A stretch of 64,000 nucleotides of DNA, from NCBI RefSeq assembly GCF_003254115.1, contig NZ_QKZV01000003.1, positions 362,501-426,500 on the forward strand, read 5' to 3'. The position numbers were made by a program, and so were the translations under genes. This DNA comes from Hydrotalea sandarakina (GTDB lineage Bacteria; Bacteroidota; Bacteroidia; Chitinophagales; Chitinophagaceae). Below the pieces are notes generated by a model. It saw only the letters and a list, made by a program, of their open reading frames with translations. It was not told where the DNA came from and did not search any database. Below are positions 19,647 to 26,458 of the stretch, piece after piece. Numbering within the stretch: position 1 is the stretch's first letter; the number at the start of each line of letters is the position of its first letter.

Positions 19647-20540
19647 ATGCATAATCCGACTAAAATTCTAAAAGAAATTATTCCATTAACCCAGAATGAT
19701 TGCTTCACCATTTTTGCAAGGGAAAAGCAATCCGTTGATTATCCTTTACACTACCACGAAGAAATTGAGTTAAATTTTATCATGAATGCACCTAAAGCAA
19801 GAAGAGTAATAGGTGATCATATGGGTGAAACGGATAATCTTGAGCTAGTACTAATTGGTTCTAATTTGCAACACGGCTGGTTCAATCATCAATGTACCAG
19901 TAAAGAAATTACTGAAATAACAATTCAATTTCATCCCGATTTATTTGATGACAATTTGCTAAAACGTAATCAACTCAGCTATATTAAAAACCTTTTACAA
20001 CTTTCATCACGTGGCATATTATTTTCCAAACAAACTGCTTCAGCAGTAAAACCTTTGTTATTAAAACTGCCACAAAAACAAGGTTTTGAATCAGTTTTAG
20101 AATTGTTTACCATTTTGCACCAACTATCAACTTCCAAAAATTATCGACTTCTAGCGTCTAATAACAACCTTCATAAAATAAAAACAAATAATTATGGTAA
20201 TTCACGCTTGGAAGCAGTGATGGAGTATTTGAATAATCATTTTCACCAACCAATCAATCTTGCTGACATTGCCAATATAGCCGCAATGACAGAAGTTTCA
20301 TTCAGCCGATTTTTTAAAAACAGAACAGGCCAAACTTTTATTGATACTTTAAACGAAATTAGAATTGGCCATGCTGCAAGATTATTAATTGAAACCAATT
20401 TAAGCATAAATGAAATAGCAGATAAATGTGGCTATAACAACATGAGTAATTTTAATCGCGCCTTTAAAAAAAGAAAACAATGTACACCTAAGGAGTTTAG
20501 GGAAACTTATACAGACTTTGGTACAAAAATGTTTATTTAA
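19647..20540 (+). CDS. AraC family transcriptional regulator
   Basis: 297 residues. The N-terminal half is a cupin-like sensor domain (HYHEEIELNFIMNAPKARRVIGDH, with GSNLQHGWF), and the C-terminal 100 residues carry the two AraC helix-turn-helix motifs: INLADIANIAAMTEVSFSRFFKNRTG and LSINEIADKCGYNNMSNFNRAFKKRKQCTPKEFRE. It is transcribed away from the SusC operon and probably activates it on sensing a sugar or oligosaccharide. It is a one-component cytoplasmic regulator, unlike the hybrid two-component sensors common in Bacteroides PULs. Confidence 0.92.
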   Translation: MHNPTKILKEIIPLTQNDCFTIFAREKQSVDYPLHYHEEIELNFIMNAPKARRVIGDHMGETDNLELVLIGSNLQHGWFNHQCTSKEITEITIQFHPDLFDDNLLKRNQLSYIKNLLQLSSRGILFSKQTASAVKPLLLKLPQKQGFESVLELFTILHQLSTSKNYRLLASNNNLHKIKTNNYGNSRLEAVMEYLNNHFHQPINLADIANIAAMTEVSFSRFFKNRTGQTFIDTLNEIRIGHAARLLIETNLSINEIADKCGYNNMSNFNRAFKKRKQCTPKEFRETYTDFGTKMFI

Positions 20541-20553
20541 AAAATGTATTGCG

Positions 20554-21093
20554 TCATTTAACCGCCATTACATTTAATTGTACTAATACCGTATTAGCCA
20601 AAACCCAACTTGAAGAACCAACACCAAAATCTAAACGATTAATGGTAAACTGACCTTGCAAACGATATCCTATTGACGTAGCCTCAACTTTAAATGGGAA
20701 ATTAATTGTTTTAGAAACACCTTTTATAGTTAATTTTCCGGTAACCCAACACATTCCATCTGTCAAGTTTTTATATACATTAGTAGATATGAAATGCAGT
20801 TCTGGGAACTTTTCCACATCAAAATAATCACTTGCACGCAAATGCTGATCTCGTGCATTGATCCCTGTATTTACAGTGGCCGCTTCAACCGTTACATTAA
20901 AATAGTCTTTGGTACAGTCTTGTTCGTTAATAATCATTTCACCTTGTAATCCCTTTAGCGTTCCCGAAGTATTAATGCCAAAGTTTTTAATGGTAAAACG
21001 AATGTGGGAAGCTGCATCATCGGGATGAAAAATTTGAGCATTTACCTGCATAAAAAGCATGAAACAACTTACCAACAAACTAATTCTTATCAT
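20554..21093 (-). CDS. YceI family polyisoprenoid-binding lipocalin
   Basis: 179 residues with a signal peptide (MIRISLLVSCFMLFMQVNAQ). The mature part fits the YceI fold: DDAASHIRFTIKNFGINTSGTLKG, ARDQHLRASDYFDVEKFPELHF, and VTGKLTIKGVSKTINFPFKVE. Structures of YceI proteins show a lipocalin-like barrel holding an isoprenoid lipid; the Thermus homologue TT1927b was solved with a polyprenyl chain inside. The gene is 39 bp downstream of the oxidoreductase and on the same strand, so it is probably the last gene of the UbiA/polyketide synthase operon. A periplasmic carrier for the operon's lipid product is an attractive but unproven role. Confidence 0.88.
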   Translation of the reverse strand: MIRISLLVSCFMLFMQVNAQIFHPDDAASHIRFTIKNFGINTSGTLKGLQGEMIINEQDCTKDYFNVTVEAATVNTGINARDQHLRASDYFDVEKFPELHFISTNVYKNLTDGMCWVTGKLTIKGVSKTINFPFKVEATSIGYRLQGQFTINRLDFGVGSSSWVLANTVLVQLNVMAVK

Positions 21094-21132
21094 ATATGCA
21101 TTTTAGCCTTATATCTATTCAACAAAGCAAAA

Positions 21133-22272
21133 CTAAAATGGTTGGCCATGTGTAGCAGCGATGATATGCCTGGCTAAGAAAGGTAAGCGGCGCATTACTC
21201 CTAAAGAAAGAGAAGTGAGCCAATCTGCACCCATTAATGATTGTACTTTTCTTCCATACCATAATCGAGTTTTGAAATGGTGTTCCCAATCAATCCTGTA
21301 TTGTCGTTCCATTTCAAGCCTATTAATCATACCTTTCAAAAACTTGTCAACCACAGTAAAAGCTAATTTGCCGGAATGCATTGCCATACTCATTCCATTA
21401 CCACATAAAGGGGTAATTAAACCCGCAGCATCACCAACCATTAAAACATGATTTTGTATTTGCGTTTTGGGTGCAAAAGATACCTGTGCAATAGCCTCGG
21501 GTTTTGCGTATAAAAATTCTGCCTCACTAAAAATTTTTTTTAAAGCGGGATTTTGATACAAAACCCTTTCTTGCATTGCCTCAATACTGTTTTCATTTTC
21601 CTTCAAGTTACGCATTGTAGTAAGATAACACAAGCAACATTTTTCATCTTCAATCATGGAAATACCGCAATAGCCATTTTTGAAATTATGCAGTGCTATC
21701 AAATTATTGGGAAAGTGATATTTAATGTGATATTTAATGCCAATAAAATTATTACAGGATGAAAATTTTCTTTCTTCGTTAATTCTTTTCAACTGAACAT
21801 CTATATTGCTTCGTTTACCAAAACTGCCTATAACAACTCTTGATGAAAAATTTCCCTTGGTGGTAACTACCGCAAAAAAATCTTGCAAAAAGTTGATGTT
21901 CATCACTTTTGTTCCTGCAAATACTTGTACATTTTTTTCAATGGCAAGTTTATATAATTCATCATCTAACTTAAACCTGCTTATACCAAAGCCCCCTAAA
22001 TCTAATTGAAACGGATAGGCATTGCCTTTGATATCTGTTACCAGCAATTGTTGAATTTCAGGTAATTGCCATGAGTTTAATGGCAATCCTAATTCAATTA
22101 AAAAAGATTTGCTTTCATTACTCACATATTCACCGCAAACTTTATGAAATGGATATTCCTCTTTTTCAAAAACAGCAACATTGTAACCGGCATTTGCACA
22201 TTGAATGGCAAAAGTTAAACCACCCAAGCCACCACCTGCAACAATTATATCAAAATTAATTTCTCTTTGCAT
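21133..22272 (-). CDS. FAD-dependent oxidoreductase, geranylgeranyl-reductase-like
   Basis: 379 residues of the group A FAD monooxygenase/geranylgeranyl reductase family. The dinucleotide motif VAGGGLGGLTFAIQCANAGY is at residues about 11-30, followed by VAVFEKEEYPFHKVCGEYVS. The second FAD motif HVLMVGDAAGLITPLCGNGMSMAM is near residue 280. Members either hydroxylate aromatic rings or reduce isoprenoid double bonds; both fit a pathway with a polyketide synthase and a prenyltransferase. Its start overlaps the end of the methyltransferase gene by 17 bp, so translation is coupled. Confidence 0.85.
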   Translation of the reverse strand: MQREINFDIIVAGGGLGGLTFAIQCANAGYNVAVFEKEEYPFHKVCGEYVSNESKSFLIELGLPLNSWQLPEIQQLLVTDIKGNAYPFQLDLGGFGISRFKLDDELYKLAIEKNVQVFAGTKVMNINFLQDFFAVVTTKGNFSSRVVIGSFGKRSNIDVQLKRINEERKFSSCNNFIGIKYHIKYHFPNNLIALHNFKNGYCGISMIEDEKCCLCYLTTMRNLKENENSIEAMQERVLYQNPALKKIFSEAEFLYAKPEAIAQVSFAPKTQIQNHVLMVGDAAGLITPLCGNGMSMAMHSGKLAFTVVDKFLKGMINRLEMERQYRIDWEHHFKTRLWYGRKVQSLMGADWLTSLSLGVMRRLPFLARHIIAATHGQPF

Positions 22273-22960
22273 GTTGTACCAAGATTAAATATCGAAATGC
22301 CCATTTCCAAGAAATAGTATAATGTTGAATATCAGCAAATTCCAATAAAGAAATCCACTCCGTTTTTCGCCATCCTTTTGCTACGCTTAAAGCTGCATCG
22401 TGCTTTACTAAATATGATTTTGAAAAGATTTTAGTGAGGAATAAAATTGAATAGTATGCGAAACCATTTCTATGCAAATCATTTATAAAAAAACCTAACT
22501 CGCAATTTTCTTTCATCCATTTTAATTGAAAACAAATTTCTTTTTCGGTGAAATGATGGCAGAACAAACTTGAAAATATAATATCGGGTTTTTGTTTAAA
22601 ATGAACAGTTGCAAAATCTGCTACTATCCAATTCGTATTCATCCTGCTGTCAAATAATGCTTTAGCAACTTCAATACAATTTTCGTTTTTATCAATACCT
22701 ACTATGCTGATTGTAATATTATGTTGAATACAAAAAGTAGCAATAGCTTTTAAATTATCACCTCCACCACAACCTATTTCACAAACAGTAACTGATTTCC
22801 TATTACCTACTAATTTTTTAAATCCATTCAATGTAATTTTATGGCCGCCTAACCAAGTATTAATCACATTCAATTCCTGCATGTTTATTTTGATTTCCTC
22901 AAAAGGGATATTCTCCCCATCTAATAATTCAGGTTGATATGATCGATTTTGCAAATTCAT
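22256..22960 (-). CDS. Class I SAM-dependent methyltransferase
   Basis: 234 residues. SAM motif I is VCEIGCGGGDNLKAIA and the acidic motif II end is SIVGIDKNENCIEVA; IIFSSLFCHHFTEKEI corresponds to the post-III region of UbiE/COQ5-like enzymes. The substrate cannot be read from the sequence. The gene overlaps the polyketide synthase stop (ATGA, 22957-22960) and the next gene (22256-22272), so it is firmly inside the operon. It probably O- or C-methylates the aromatic product of the type III synthase. Confidence 0.85.
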   Translation of the reverse strand: MNLQNRSYQPELLDGENIPFEEIKINMQELNVINTWLGGHKITLNGFKKLVGNRKSVTVCEIGCGGGDNLKAIATFCIQHNITISIVGIDKNENCIEVAKALFDSRMNTNWIVADFATVHFKQKPDIIFSSLFCHHFTEKEICFQLKWMKENCELGFFINDLHRNGFAYYSILFLTKIFSKSYLVKHDAALSVAKGWRKTEWISLLEFADIQHYTISWKWAFRYLILVQHAKRN

Positions 22961-24048
22961 ATTAAAGTAGCAGTAAAGGTTTCCATTGTTAAACCGGGGC
23001 CAAATGCTATTCCAAAAACGGATTCCTCATGCAATGGCTTTTGCTTCATAATTTCATTTAACACAAATAATATACTTGGCGAAGACATATTGCCATAGTT
23101 TTCTAAAACATATCGGGAAGGGATTGTTTTACACGGCGGCAATTGTAATTTTTGTTCAATTACGTCAATAATTTTTCTTCCGCCGGGATGAATACACCAG
23201 TGTACAATATCTGGCGTTGAAAGTTTATTTTTTTCTAACGCAGTGGCAACTAATACATCAATATCACTTTCTATAATTGTTGGAATAAAACTGCTCAAAG
23301 TCATCTCAAAACCATTGTTACCAATTTGCCAGGCCATATCATTTTTGCCTTTATTTTCAATTGAAGAATAAAAATTATTCAATTGTATTACTGCTTTGGA
23401 ATTATTTTGGAGAATTTGATTAGAAACCAATACAGCAGCGGCACCATCAGCAAACAACATGCTACTTGTTGCATTATCGTCCGAAAATTTGGGTTGAAAA
23501 TGTATTGTACATAATTCAACAGCAACTATTGCAACCAAAGCATTGGGTTCGGCATTACAAATATAATTAGCCATTTTTAGTGCATGAATGGCTGCATAAC
23601 ATCCCATAAAATTAACAGAGGTTCTAAAAATGCTTTTAGACATTTGAAGCATTTCAACCAATTGCAAATCAATACCGGGTGCACACATACCTGTACAACT
23701 TACCGTAATAAGATGCGTAATTTCAGAAGATACTGCTACCCCTTCTAAACAATGTTGAACAGCAGAAAAAGCCAATTGTGGCGCCAAGGACTGATAAACT
23801 TCCATACGTTTAGCTACGGTAGGATTCTCATTCCCTTCAAAAAACAATTGTCTATTATTTAGTTCATGATCCGAAAAGTCTGATAAAACGGAGTAGCGTT
23901 GACGAATGCCACTTTGACGGTATAAATAGGCTAAGATTCGTTTTTGTGATTGGTTTAAAGCATACATATCCTGCATAAAATGCAGAATATTGATTTGCTG
24001 ATGACAATATTTTGGCACCGCTGTTCCTATGGATATAATATTAGCCAA
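22957..24048 (-). CDS. Type III polyketide synthase (chalcone/stilbene synthase family)
   Basis: 363 residues, the usual homodimer subunit size. The catalytic triad is visible: Cys150 in NFMGCYAA, His287 in CIHPGGRKI and Asn320 in NYGNMSSPS. The C-terminal loop AFGPGLTMET matches the family GFGPG block. Such enzymes extend a starter acyl-CoA with malonyl-CoA and cyclise the chain to resorcinols, pyrones or phloroglucinols. The start is a TTG at 24048 overlapping the UbiA stop region by 8 bp; it yields the standard N-terminus ANIISIGTAVPKY and no ATG is better placed. The starter specificity is unknown. Confidence 0.93.
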   Translation of the reverse strand: MANIISIGTAVPKYCHQQINILHFMQDMYALNQSQKRILAYLYRQSGIRQRYSVLSDFSDHELNNRQLFFEGNENPTVAKRMEVYQSLAPQLAFSAVQHCLEGVAVSSEITHLITVSCTGMCAPGIDLQLVEMLQMSKSIFRTSVNFMGCYAAIHALKMANYICNAEPNALVAIVAVELCTIHFQPKFSDDNATSSMLFADGAAAVLVSNQILQNNSKAVIQLNNFYSSIENKGKNDMAWQIGNNGFEMTLSSFIPTIIESDIDVLVATALEKNKLSTPDIVHWCIHPGGRKIIDVIEQKLQLPPCKTIPSRYVLENYGNMSSPSILFVLNEIMKQKPLHEESVFGIAFGPGLTMETFTATLI

Positions 24049-24904
24049 ATTGTTGCAGTATAAGTATAAAAATAAAAGCTACATTAGTAAATATAGCAGC
24101 AATCCAATTCATTCGCATTGTTTGTTTAAAGTTTGCCTGTGCTGAATCTTTCCATACGCAATACAACCAGTAAAAAAAGTTAACCAATACCGGTAAAAAG
24201 AATAATTGAATAACAATAAATACATAGGCAGCACCAATACTTATAAAATAGTATGCCATGCATAAAAATGCCAGCATGTACATGAACATACAAAACAAAA
24301 ATGTTCCTCTCACCCCCAATAACATGGATATGGTAGTTACCCCATCTGCCTTGTCGGCTTCATGTTGATACACTTGTGTAATTGGATAAAAACCACCAAT
24401 TAATAAAATAGAAATAACAGCACCCATTATAGGGAATGTAACAATTGATTCACCGGTTGCGGCAACATAAACAGTAAAAAAAATTAACCCACCTTGATTA
24501 AATACCACTGTGAGAAAGCCAATAATTGGAAATTTTTTTAGTCGAATTCCTCTGTAACTATATAGCCGAGAAAAACATACGTATATGCAAATACCTATGC
24601 CAACAGTTGTACTTAACCAAAATGCCCATAAAACCGCTAACACATCCATTATGAAGGAAACATAAAATAGTTGCTTAGTGGGCAACATTGGTTTAGCTAC
24701 CCCGCCAATACTTTCTGTATCCTTATCCATGTAACTATTATAGGCATTACTGGCAGGATATAATAATACATGAATAATAATAAAAAGCTGCAATACATTT
24801 TCCCAATGTATTGTTTTTACAAACAATAAAGCAAACCAAAATACCGGCATTAAAAAAAAAGAAAAAGGGAAGCGTAACAATTGTATAGTGGATTGCTTTA
24901 GCAT
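24041..24904 (-). CDS. UbiA family prenyltransferase
   Basis: 287 residues with about eight or nine membrane segments. The first Asp-rich region is NAYNSYMDKDTES (53-65), corresponding to the family NxxxDxxxD prenyl-diphosphate site; the second is YQHEADKADGVTTISMLLG. UbiA proteins attach isoprenoid chains to aromatic acceptors in the membrane. It is the first gene of the operon with the type III synthase, methyltransferase, oxidoreductase and YceI, so the acceptor is probably the polyketide made by the next gene. The standard menaquinone enzyme MenA is an alternative, but no men gene lies nearby. Confidence 0.88.
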   Translation of the reverse strand: MLKQSTIQLLRFPFSFFLMPVFWFALLFVKTIHWENVLQLFIIIHVLLYPASNAYNSYMDKDTESIGGVAKPMLPTKQLFYVSFIMDVLAVLWAFWLSTTVGIGICIYVCFSRLYSYRGIRLKKFPIIGFLTVVFNQGGLIFFTVYVAATGESIVTFPIMGAVISILLIGGFYPITQVYQHEADKADGVTTISMLLGVRGTFLFCMFMYMLAFLCMAYYFISIGAAYVFIVIQLFFLPVLVNFFYWLYCVWKDSAQANFKQTMRMNWIAAIFTNVAFIFILILQQFG

Positions 24905-24977
24905 AGTTGATTATTATCGTCGAACTTTTTTGTTCGTGGAATGGATAATTTATGAAAACGCTTCCCTTTCAATACCA

Positions 24978-26381
24978 CTAATCCAATAAATGCTCTGAAT
25001 GAAGTTCAGGAATTACTACTTCTTTAAATCCTTTTCGCAATAATCTACTGCGAAAATCTTGTTGAACATCATATTCCCCATGTACTAAAAATAATATACG
25101 CACCAAATCTTTTTGTTGGCAAGCTACAAACTGCAATAAATCGTCATAATCACCATGTGCACTCATACTATGCATTTCACCGATTTCTGCTACAACTTTA
25201 TAATAATCCGCAAATATTTTTACCTCTTTTGCACCTGCCAATAAACGTCCGCCAAGGGTATGCGGCTCGCAATAGCCTACCATTAAAATGGTATTTTTAC
25301 TATCGCCTATATTATTCAATATATGATGTTTTACCCTGCCTGCATCTGCCATTCCACTTGCAGAAATAATAACACAAGGTTCTGTTTTAAAATTCAATGC
25401 TTTACTTTCATCGACAGTTTTAATAAAAGTGAGACCGGGAAAATCAAATGGATCACTATCTTGTTCCATAACCTTTCTAATTCTGCTATTAAAGTATTGC
25501 GGATATGACTTAACCACTTGTGTAGCTTCTCTGCTTAAGGGACTATCCACATAAACAGCCACTTTAGGCAATCTTCTTTCTAAAGAAAGTTGATTTAAAG
25601 CATACAATAATTCCTGTGTACGACCTACACTAAATGCAGGTATAATTAATTTTCCTTTTTTTTCTACACAAGTATGTTCAATCCATTTTAATAAAGTATC
25701 CGGAACACTATGTACATCATCATGTAGCTTATTACCATAGGTACTCTCTAAAATAATGTAATCAGATTGCGGAAATGTTTGTGGGGATCGTAAAATAACA
25801 TCATTATATCTACCCACATCACCACTGAAAGTTATTTGCTTTGTTTGGCCATTTTCAGTAATACGTAAATGTATGGCTGCACTACCAATAATATGCCCAG
25901 TATCGGTGAACATAAATTCAATGCCCGGCTCAATAGTTGTCCATACACCATATTCGGCCAAATTAAAATAATCAAAAGCTTTTTCTGCATCCGATAAATC
26001 GTATAAAGGTTCATAAGGAGGAAGCCCTTGCTTGGCTCTTTTTTTATTAATGAATTTCGTATCATCGCGTTGAATTTCTGCAGAATCTTGTAATAAAACA
26101 TCACTCAATTCGCGAGTTGCAGGTGTTGAAAATATTTTACCCTGAAAACCTTCTTTCACCAACTTTGGTATTAAACCACAGTGATCAATATGTGCATGCG
26201 ATAAAATTAAATAATCAATTTCAGAGGGTACAAAACCAAATTGCATATTTAATTGTTCAGTTTCTTTACCCAACCCTTGAAACATACCACAATCTAACAA
26301 TATTTTTCTTCCATTATCTAAGGTTACTAAATGTTTTGTGCCGGTAACCATTCTGGCAGCACCGTGAAATGTAATTTTCAT
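24978..26381 (-). CDS. MBL-fold beta-CASP ribonuclease
   Basis: 467 residues from the ATG at 26381 (an in-frame TTG two codons earlier is not needed). The metallo-beta-lactamase zinc motif is LSHAHIDHCG, preceded by LLDCGMFQG and followed by TGHIIGSAAIHL and FSGDVGR. The beta-CASP part includes IIPAFSVGRTQELLYAL, VIISASGMADAGRVKHHI, and the C-terminal RMMBL region with EIGEMHSMSAHGDYDDLL. These are the marks of RNA-specific exo/endonucleases related to CPSF73 and archaeal FttA, and it lacks KH domains. It likely acts in RNA processing or decay in the cytoplasm. Confidence 0.93.
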   Translation of the reverse strand: MKITFHGAARMVTGTKHLVTLDNGRKILLDCGMFQGLGKETEQLNMQFGFVPSEIDYLILSHAHIDHCGLIPKLVKEGFQGKIFSTPATRELSDVLLQDSAEIQRDDTKFINKKRAKQGLPPYEPLYDLSDAEKAFDYFNLAEYGVWTTIEPGIEFMFTDTGHIIGSAAIHLRITENGQTKQITFSGDVGRYNDVILRSPQTFPQSDYIILESTYGNKLHDDVHSVPDTLLKWIEHTCVEKKGKLIIPAFSVGRTQELLYALNQLSLERRLPKVAVYVDSPLSREATQVVKSYPQYFNSRIRKVMEQDSDPFDFPGLTFIKTVDESKALNFKTEPCVIISASGMADAGRVKHHILNNIGDSKNTILMVGYCEPHTLGGRLLAGAKEVKIFADYYKVVAEIGEMHSMSAHGDYDDLLQFVACQQKDLVRILFLVHGEYDVQQDFRSRLLRKGFKEVVIPELHSEHLLD

Positions 26382-26458
26382 ATTCAAATTAAAAATAAAT
26401 TATTAAATGTTTGTTTTTAAAGTTAATACAAATTCATATTCAACTTTCAAATACCGGT

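Follow-up and report, generated by a model that had tools for sequence, protein, structure and literature searches.

The agqABCD system of Actinoplanes missouriensis combines a type III polyketide synthase (PKS) with prenylation, hydroxylation and methoxylation (PMC10896814, PMC7692728, PMC4044012). It is among the closest described counterparts of the subject of this study, an operon in a 64-kb stretch of the genome of Hydrotalea sandarakina (Bacteroidota, Chitinophagaceae; contig NZ_QKZV01000003.1, positions 362,501 to 426,500; hereafter “the window”), which encodes a UbiA-superfamily prenyltransferase, a type III PKS, a methyltransferase (MT), an FAD oxidoreductase and a YceI-family lipocalin. 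According to the extracts of its sources, agqABCD resembles the window operon in combining one type III PKS with a methylation step, a hydroxylation step and a UbiA-like O-prenyltransferase of the membrane, and in forming an alkylresorcinol first; it differs in belonging to an actinomycete and in that these extracts mention no YceI protein, and the likeness is one of described functions. The Agq products, as Awakawa reportedly described in 2011, are said to be alkyl-O-dihydrogeranyl-methoxyhydroquinones.

There are further precedents. Type III PKSs of planctomycetes and cyanobacteria make long-chain alkylresorcinols (PMC10896814, PMC8086630). As far as the excerpts describe them, the hierridin operon hidABC (likened here by description) and the planctomycete operons resemble the window in uniting PKS, methyltransferase and oxidoreductase, whereas their common form is without UbiA, a prenyltransferase being present in one cyanobacterial cluster (PMC8086630, PMC10896814). 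The type III PKS operon of ‘Saltatorellus ferox’ has MT-MT-PKS preceded by genes for a lipoprotein and for a lipid/isoprenoid-binding protein (PMC10896814). The Streptomyces Srs and mycobacterial pks10 operons parallel the pathway proposed below in leading from an alkylresorcinol via methylation to oxidation to a quinone, but the excerpts do not mention prenylation; mycobacterial polyketide quinones act as electron carriers (PMC5916927). A first-pass annotation, made from the letters of the window, had stated that it knew of no described product for this gene set and that the carrier gene was its new element. The first statement is not supported by these sources, as excerpted: agqABCD is a precedent for the set, and PKS-MT-FAD alone leads to hierridins and alkylquinones. 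The ‘S. ferox’ operon, too, already includes a lipid/isoprenoid-binding protein.

What is new in the window operon is its occurrence in the phylum Bacteroidota, the altered aspartate motifs of a UbiA subclass, and YceI as a partner. Literature on type III PKSs with UbiA, YceI, Bacteroidetes or Chitinophagaceae did not contain the operon in titles or opening abstracts, subscription journals being mostly outside the scope of this search. A survey of quinone pathways, in its accessible part, attributes one ubiquinone prediction in Bacteroidota to an annotation error and does not mention a polyketide-derived quinone (PMC13386864).

We propose, with a probability of roughly 0.6, that the operon encodes a membrane-lipid pathway akin to the agq and hierridin pathways and makes a prenylated phenolic lipid that a YceI protein of a subfamily termed Y1 binds, moves or shields. 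In this pathway, whose substrates, order of steps and product we infer from the observed gene content, gene order, conservation, co-occurrence and active-site residues, the PKS would load a long-chain fatty acyl starter and extend it with malonyl units to an alkylresorcinol. The MT would then methylate a phenol, the flavoprotein would hydroxylate the ring, giving a (methoxy)hydroquinone open to oxidation to a quinone, and UbiA would add a prenyl chain to the ring or to an oxygen. The pathway would supply the cell envelope with a phenolic lipid that is meroterpenoid and redox-active. Where present, exported Y1 might bind this product, or a different polyisoprenoid lipid that is required alongside, and move or shield the lipid.

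Conservation of the Operon

The comparison draws on 396 genomes of the window's order, 108 of which contain PKS homologues. These are of a window type (at least 37% identity along most of the length; 71 genomes, that of the window included) or of a distant type (at most 34% identity; 36 genomes), while one further genome, G120, has a PKS fragment of 42% identity, which is probably window-type and enters no count. The PKS loci examined were those of the window and of 80 further genomes, 70 of which carry the window type and 10 the distant type; the remaining 27 of the 108, G120 among them, were left out. At the level of the family, the sample comprises 133 genomes, 47 with and 86 without a window-type PKS; this total assumes that unlisted even-numbered handles above G199 lie outside the family (77 of 78 handles probed were of the family). 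Arrangements were counted by eye from locus maps, and a recount by script was identical.

All five open reading frames (ORFs) lie on the minus strand within positions 20554-24904 of the window, and each protein scores above the cut-off of its Pfam family. Overlaps of 8 bp (UbiA/PKS), 4 bp (PKS/MT) and 17 bp (MT/FAD) and a spacing of 39 bp between FAD and YceI, as given in the first-pass annotation, are borne out by the ORF coordinates. The five-gene operon that it described from this layout stands for four of its members: UbiA, PKS, MT and FAD follow each other in this order on one strand in 45 of the 47 window-type loci of the family, whereas a YceI gene in fifth place is confined to the window genome and the single congener sampled. 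The two exceptions among the 47 are L057, without MT and FAD, and L096, without UbiA; L057 (genome G263) keeps UbiA-PKS, and ORFs of 573 and 166 amino acids (aa) stand at the MT/FAD place. Beyond the family, within the order, UbiA is divergent or downstream and still adjoins the PKS.

The conserved unit is four genes, UbiA-PKS-MT-FAD, and the wider core is PKS-MT-FAD. This three-gene core of the hierridin and Srs systems is present here in one operon, as is the set known from agq, i.e., type III PKS, methyltransferase, flavoprotein (with a putative hydroxylase role) and UbiA-like enzyme. The same trio is annotated in Deinococcus; in Psychrobacter, the PKS is convergent to FAD and MT, and the third gene of a Microvirga trio is annotated as an NAD-binding protein.

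The Polyketide Synthase

The PKS scores above the cut-offs of both Chal_sti_synt_N (94 bits) and Chal_sti_synt_C (86 bits), and its Cys150-His287-Asn320 triad, reported as intact in the first pass, is unchanged in 102 of 102 aligned rows. By triad and profile, it belongs to the chalcone synthase-type III PKS family. PKS18 is one of the four best solved-structure matches, and T119, A123 and C180 of the window enzyme align with T144, A148 and C205 of PKS18, residues that line its long acyl tunnel. Because of this match, a long-chain alkylresorcinol is the likely first product. The three residues are invariant in all 90 PKS rows of at least 36% identity, and the 11 rows below 34% identity all have I or M at position 123 and P or S at position 180; one row of 35% identity (L101) was placed in neither group.

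Alternatively, the PKS might form a small ring of the orsellinic or phloroglucinol type without a fatty chain, to which UbiA would attach a long polyprenyl tail, yielding a ubiquinone-like lipid with a ring derived from polyketide instead of chorismate. Ring synthesis, UbiA, a UbiG-like methylase and a UbiH-superfamily flavoprotein would form a fitting enzyme set; the MT matches TIGR01983, although at 24 bits far under the cut-off of 103, and the operon is without fatty-acid genes, unlike the other PKS type described below. YceI proteins have, moreover, been found to hold ubiquinone-8, according to the excerpt of the source (PMC9113575). The small residues at positions 119, 123 and 180, which suggest a long acyl tunnel, the place of PKS18 among the best solved matches and the alkylresorcinols made by known relatives all argue for the long-chain product, and the small ring appears unlikely.

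DpgA was rejected as an identity for the PKS: it scores 150 bits where the cut-off is 425, and it shares only 25-26% identity with two plasmid enzymes annotated as DpgA. The same order contains a second kind of type III PKS cluster (L103-L109, L111, L197), in which FAD-MT-PKS is followed by genes for a short-chain dehydrogenase (SDR)-type reductase, a FabA-like dehydratase and a ketosynthase; then come a small ORF of acyl carrier protein (ACP) size and a phosphopantetheinyl transferase, with no UbiA beside the cluster. It appears to be a PKS equipped with a fatty-acid supply of its own.

The Prenyltransferase

The UbiA protein matches the superfamily profile PF01040 with 57 bits (cut-off 34.2). 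The NxxxDxxxD-like site noticed in the first pass proved to be partly conserved: N56xxxD60 with D62 is invariant in 69 of 69 rows, whereas position 64, where the third Asp is expected, is mostly Gly, Ser, Thr or Glu and Asp in 6 of 69 only. The second motif, QxYQHxxD, replaces DxxxD and is found in 66-67 of the 69 rows (two rows are gapped). Because NxxxDxD and QxYQHxxD stand in for the canonical motifs NxxxDxxxD and DxxxD, the protein is, judging by its motifs, a superfamily member other than canonical UbiA or MenA and forms a distinct subclass.

In the order, UbiA and the PKS cluster are neighbors at 64 of 71 loci: UbiA is upstream on the same strand at 53, divergent at 9 and behind FAD at 2. 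Three of the other seven loci are contigs of less than 8 kb. Ten PKS-positive genomes, seven from the order and three from the class, are without an adjacent UbiA; an orthologue of 38-44% identity lies elsewhere in eight of them, and none was found in G152 and the incomplete G136. At the test threshold of E 1e-8, no orthologue was found in any of 36 family genomes without a window-type PKS, seven of which hold the distant type. UbiA is therefore a near-constant partner of the PKS within the class, among the genomes sampled. A plasmid collection gave no UbiA match. The conserved gene order, the persistent linkage of a rearranged UbiA and its absence from these 36 genomes support the proposal, already made in the first pass, of a pathway to a prenylated, methylated polyketide lipid.

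Methyltransferase and Flavoprotein

The MT scores above the cut-off of Methyltransf_25 (41 bits); its match to PRK06202 reaches 104 bits and stays below the cut-off of 243, and there is one solved relative, which is weak. The flavoprotein passes the Pfam cut-off of FAD_binding_2 (30 bits), and CGE, R99, Y201 and G203 are unchanged in 80 of 80 rows and also kept in PKS-MT-FAD clusters without an adjacent UbiA. Since the same enzyme with the same residues occurs in the latter, its substrate is probably the ring, on which it most likely acts.

The best NCBIfam match of the flavoprotein is TIGR02032 (GG-red-SF), and the Agq products bear a dihydrogeranyl group according to the source extracts, both of which would suit a prenyl-chain reductase of the geranylgeranyl-reductase family in place of a ring hydroxylase. 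This is improbable, as the TIGR02032 score of 100 bits lies below the family cut-off of 158.8, GYCG stands at the position of the geranylgeranyl reductase motif, (Y/F)xWxFP, and the enzyme accompanies PKS and MT in clusters where UbiA is not adjacent. A halogenase was likewise considered as the main assignment, solved halogenases being weak matches, and was rejected because GYCG occupies the site of the halogenase motif WxWxIP. A relative of 38% identity on a Hymenobacter plasmid (L213:4953-6137) lies beside genes for an isonitrile synthase and a TauD/TfdA dioxygenase.

The YceI Lipocalin as a Co-occurring Partner

The YceI protein matches PF04264 (117 bits, above the cut-off) as well as solved YceI homologues. 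Its N-terminus resembles a signal peptide by eye, MIRISLLVSCFMLFMQVNA, and the protein may be exported to the periplasm. Genomes carry up to 11 YceI copies, and copies were assigned to Y1 by a cut-off of E 1e-26, which was set after the first YceI comparison had been viewed. The Y1 clade (40 rows and the G289 copy) stands apart from 17 other YceI rows with a support of 0.97-0.98; support had been 0.12 in an initial tree that included all 20 control rows, two of which were then removed because their longest ORF was not the YceI frame. G289, a PKS-positive genome just under the cut-off, lies within the clade (PKS-negative genomes received no such re-check), and the YceI of G388 exceeds the cut-off yet falls outside the clade, G388 belonging to another family and not to the 133 genomes.

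Y1 is present in 34 of the 47 family genomes with a window-type PKS, compared to 5 of the 86 without it (Fisher p 7e-16). In a within-genus permutation, the overlap of Y1 and PKS is 13 against 6.3 expected, a value reached in 0 of 100,000 permutations. Genome size does not explain the association, as among genomes of 3.9-6.7 Mb Y1 occurs in 29 of 39 with and 1 of 29 without PKS, and excluding the eight genomes in which Y1 is linked to the operon leaves 26/39 versus 5/86. A control, the carotenoid family PF04240, has no link to the PKS (20/47 with, 39/86 without).

Direct contact of Y1 with the operon is found in 8 of the 47 PKS genomes (five genera) in three arrangements, i.e., after FAD (window genome and congener), divergent from UbiA (five genomes of three genera) and upstream on the same strand (one). 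In G235, Y1 adjoins a PKS cluster of the other type. The link is a statistical one, with Y1 as a co-occurring partner in the family genomes; the assignment of YceI to the pathway in the first-pass annotation is supported in this sense, whereas adjacency is rare. The annotation had named the separation of UbiA and YceI from the PKS in most relatives as the outcome that would speak against it, and for YceI this outcome was obtained, because only the eight genomes show adjacency. In genus g10, the loci L198 and L201 have no PKS operon, and YceI sits between genes for a CoA-binding protein and a Mg-chelatase-like protein, the same genes that flank YceI plus the operon in their congener L081; the operon was either lost or gained at one fixed position.

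In the majority of YceI structures an isoprenoid is bound, e.g., an octaprenyl lipid or ubiquinone-8, as stated in the excerpt of the source (PMC9113575), and for this reason Y1 may bind the pathway product or a companion polyisoprenoid. BcnA and LcoA resemble Y1 as isoprenoid quinone-binding members of the YceI barrel family; unlike Y1, they have cytochrome b561 and not a biosynthetic operon as genetic partner, according to the same excerpt (PMC9113575).

Several observations weigh against the proposed pathway or the part of Y1 in it. Two canonical Asp positions are absent from UbiA, and donor binding may consequently be altered. In 11 genomes of other classes, among which the PKS-MT-FAD trio is frequent, UbiA was matched weakly (26-30%) in 3 and not at all in 8. 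By the cut-off, 13 of the 47 PKS genomes are without Y1 (12 if G289 is counted), 5 of the 86 others possess it, no contrast between Y1 and PKS is seen within g6, g10 and g41 and a weak one in genus g5 (2/3 versus 2/10), and all co-occurrence counts are phylogenetically non-independent. Furthermore, Y1 ends a carotenoid gene run in three genera (L181, L182, L188), which consists of phytoene synthase, amine-oxidase/CrtI-like, PF04240 and lycopene cyclase genes (members typed in part), with an intervening sugar kinase in one. Because of these runs and the five genomes with Y1 and no window-type PKS, Y1 is not dedicated to the PKS pathway.

At other sites, Y1 is part of different gene runs, many of which include YHS, DoxX, TANGO2 and LysE family genes. 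Together with the rare adjacency and the PKS genomes without Y1, such conserved runs would be compatible with YceI as a chance neighbor or a general envelope lipocalin, a pathway of four genes only, and a co-occurrence that results from shared lineages or life style. We consider this possible, if somewhat doubtful: the within-genus contrast, the failure of genome size to explain the counts, the unlinked carotenoid control gene and the three adjacency arrangements, as well as the Y1 copy beside a different PKS type in G235, all argue for an association of Y1 with the pathway.

Gene Layout and Flanking Genes

Table 1. Coordinates of the operon genes and the upstream gap within the 64-kb window.
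Feature	Positions	Strand	Characteristics
UbiA-superfamily membrane prenyltransferase	24041..24904	-	287 aa; motifs NSYMDxD and QxYQHxxD; based on PF01040, motif conservation and distribution
Type III PKS	22957..24048	-	363 aa; TTG start; C150-H287-N320; T119/A123/C180
SAM-dependent methyltransferase (MT)	22256..22960	-	234 aa; Methyltransf_25
FAD oxidoreductase, geranylgeranyl-reductase/halogenase/UbiH superfamily	21133..22272	-	379 aa; C46-G-E, R99, GYCG; putative ring hydroxylase
YceI-family lipocalin, subfamily Y1	20554..21093	-	179 aa; PF04264; apparent signal peptide
Gap between MBL-fold RNase-like gene and UbiA	24905..24977	-	73 bp; not kept in congener

Promoter-like sites in 20400-25200 are not above chance (26 versus 24.3 expected), and five terminator-like sites compare with 3.0 expected. 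Convergent with YceI lies an AraC gene (19647-20540), which was not counted into the operon. Upstream of UbiA, the MBL-fold/beta-CASP gene 24978-26387 (minus strand) matches NCBIfam NF045584 (type VII CRISPR Cas14) with 395 bits at a cut-off of 800, and its product is likelier a general beta-CASP nuclease than Cas14; it is 90% identical to its counterpart in the congener, compared to 69% for UbiA. A longer cluster with the flanking CoA-binding, RNase H-like, GTPase and PDH E2 genes, which are common in relatives, was dropped because these genes are housekeeping-like by Pfam. Other recurrent neighbors in relatives are a MarR regulator, proteins of 485 and 123 aa without a Pfam match, and an epimerase. 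A scan of the genome contigs gave a single match, which was weak and partial.

Implications

A bolder and rather unlikely extension of the proposed pathway is that many Bacteroidota, which are believed to depend on menaquinone, produce in their envelope a second such lipid, an isoprenoid hydroquinone/quinone derived from a polyketide, with Y1 as its own periplasmic carrier. Lipid and carrier might form a lipid redox shuttle or antioxidant system that spans the periplasm, comparable to ubiquinone-BcnA or tocopherol. If the pathway itself is as proposed, about a third of the sampled family genomes (47/133) would produce a prenylated phenolic lipid not described so far, a candidate ligand would emerge for one subfamily of the widespread and poorly understood YceI lipocalins, and alkylresorcinol/quinone pathways would be tied to envelope lipid transport. 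If the bolder extension were also true, a non-menaquinone redox lipid would be added to the Bacteroidota.

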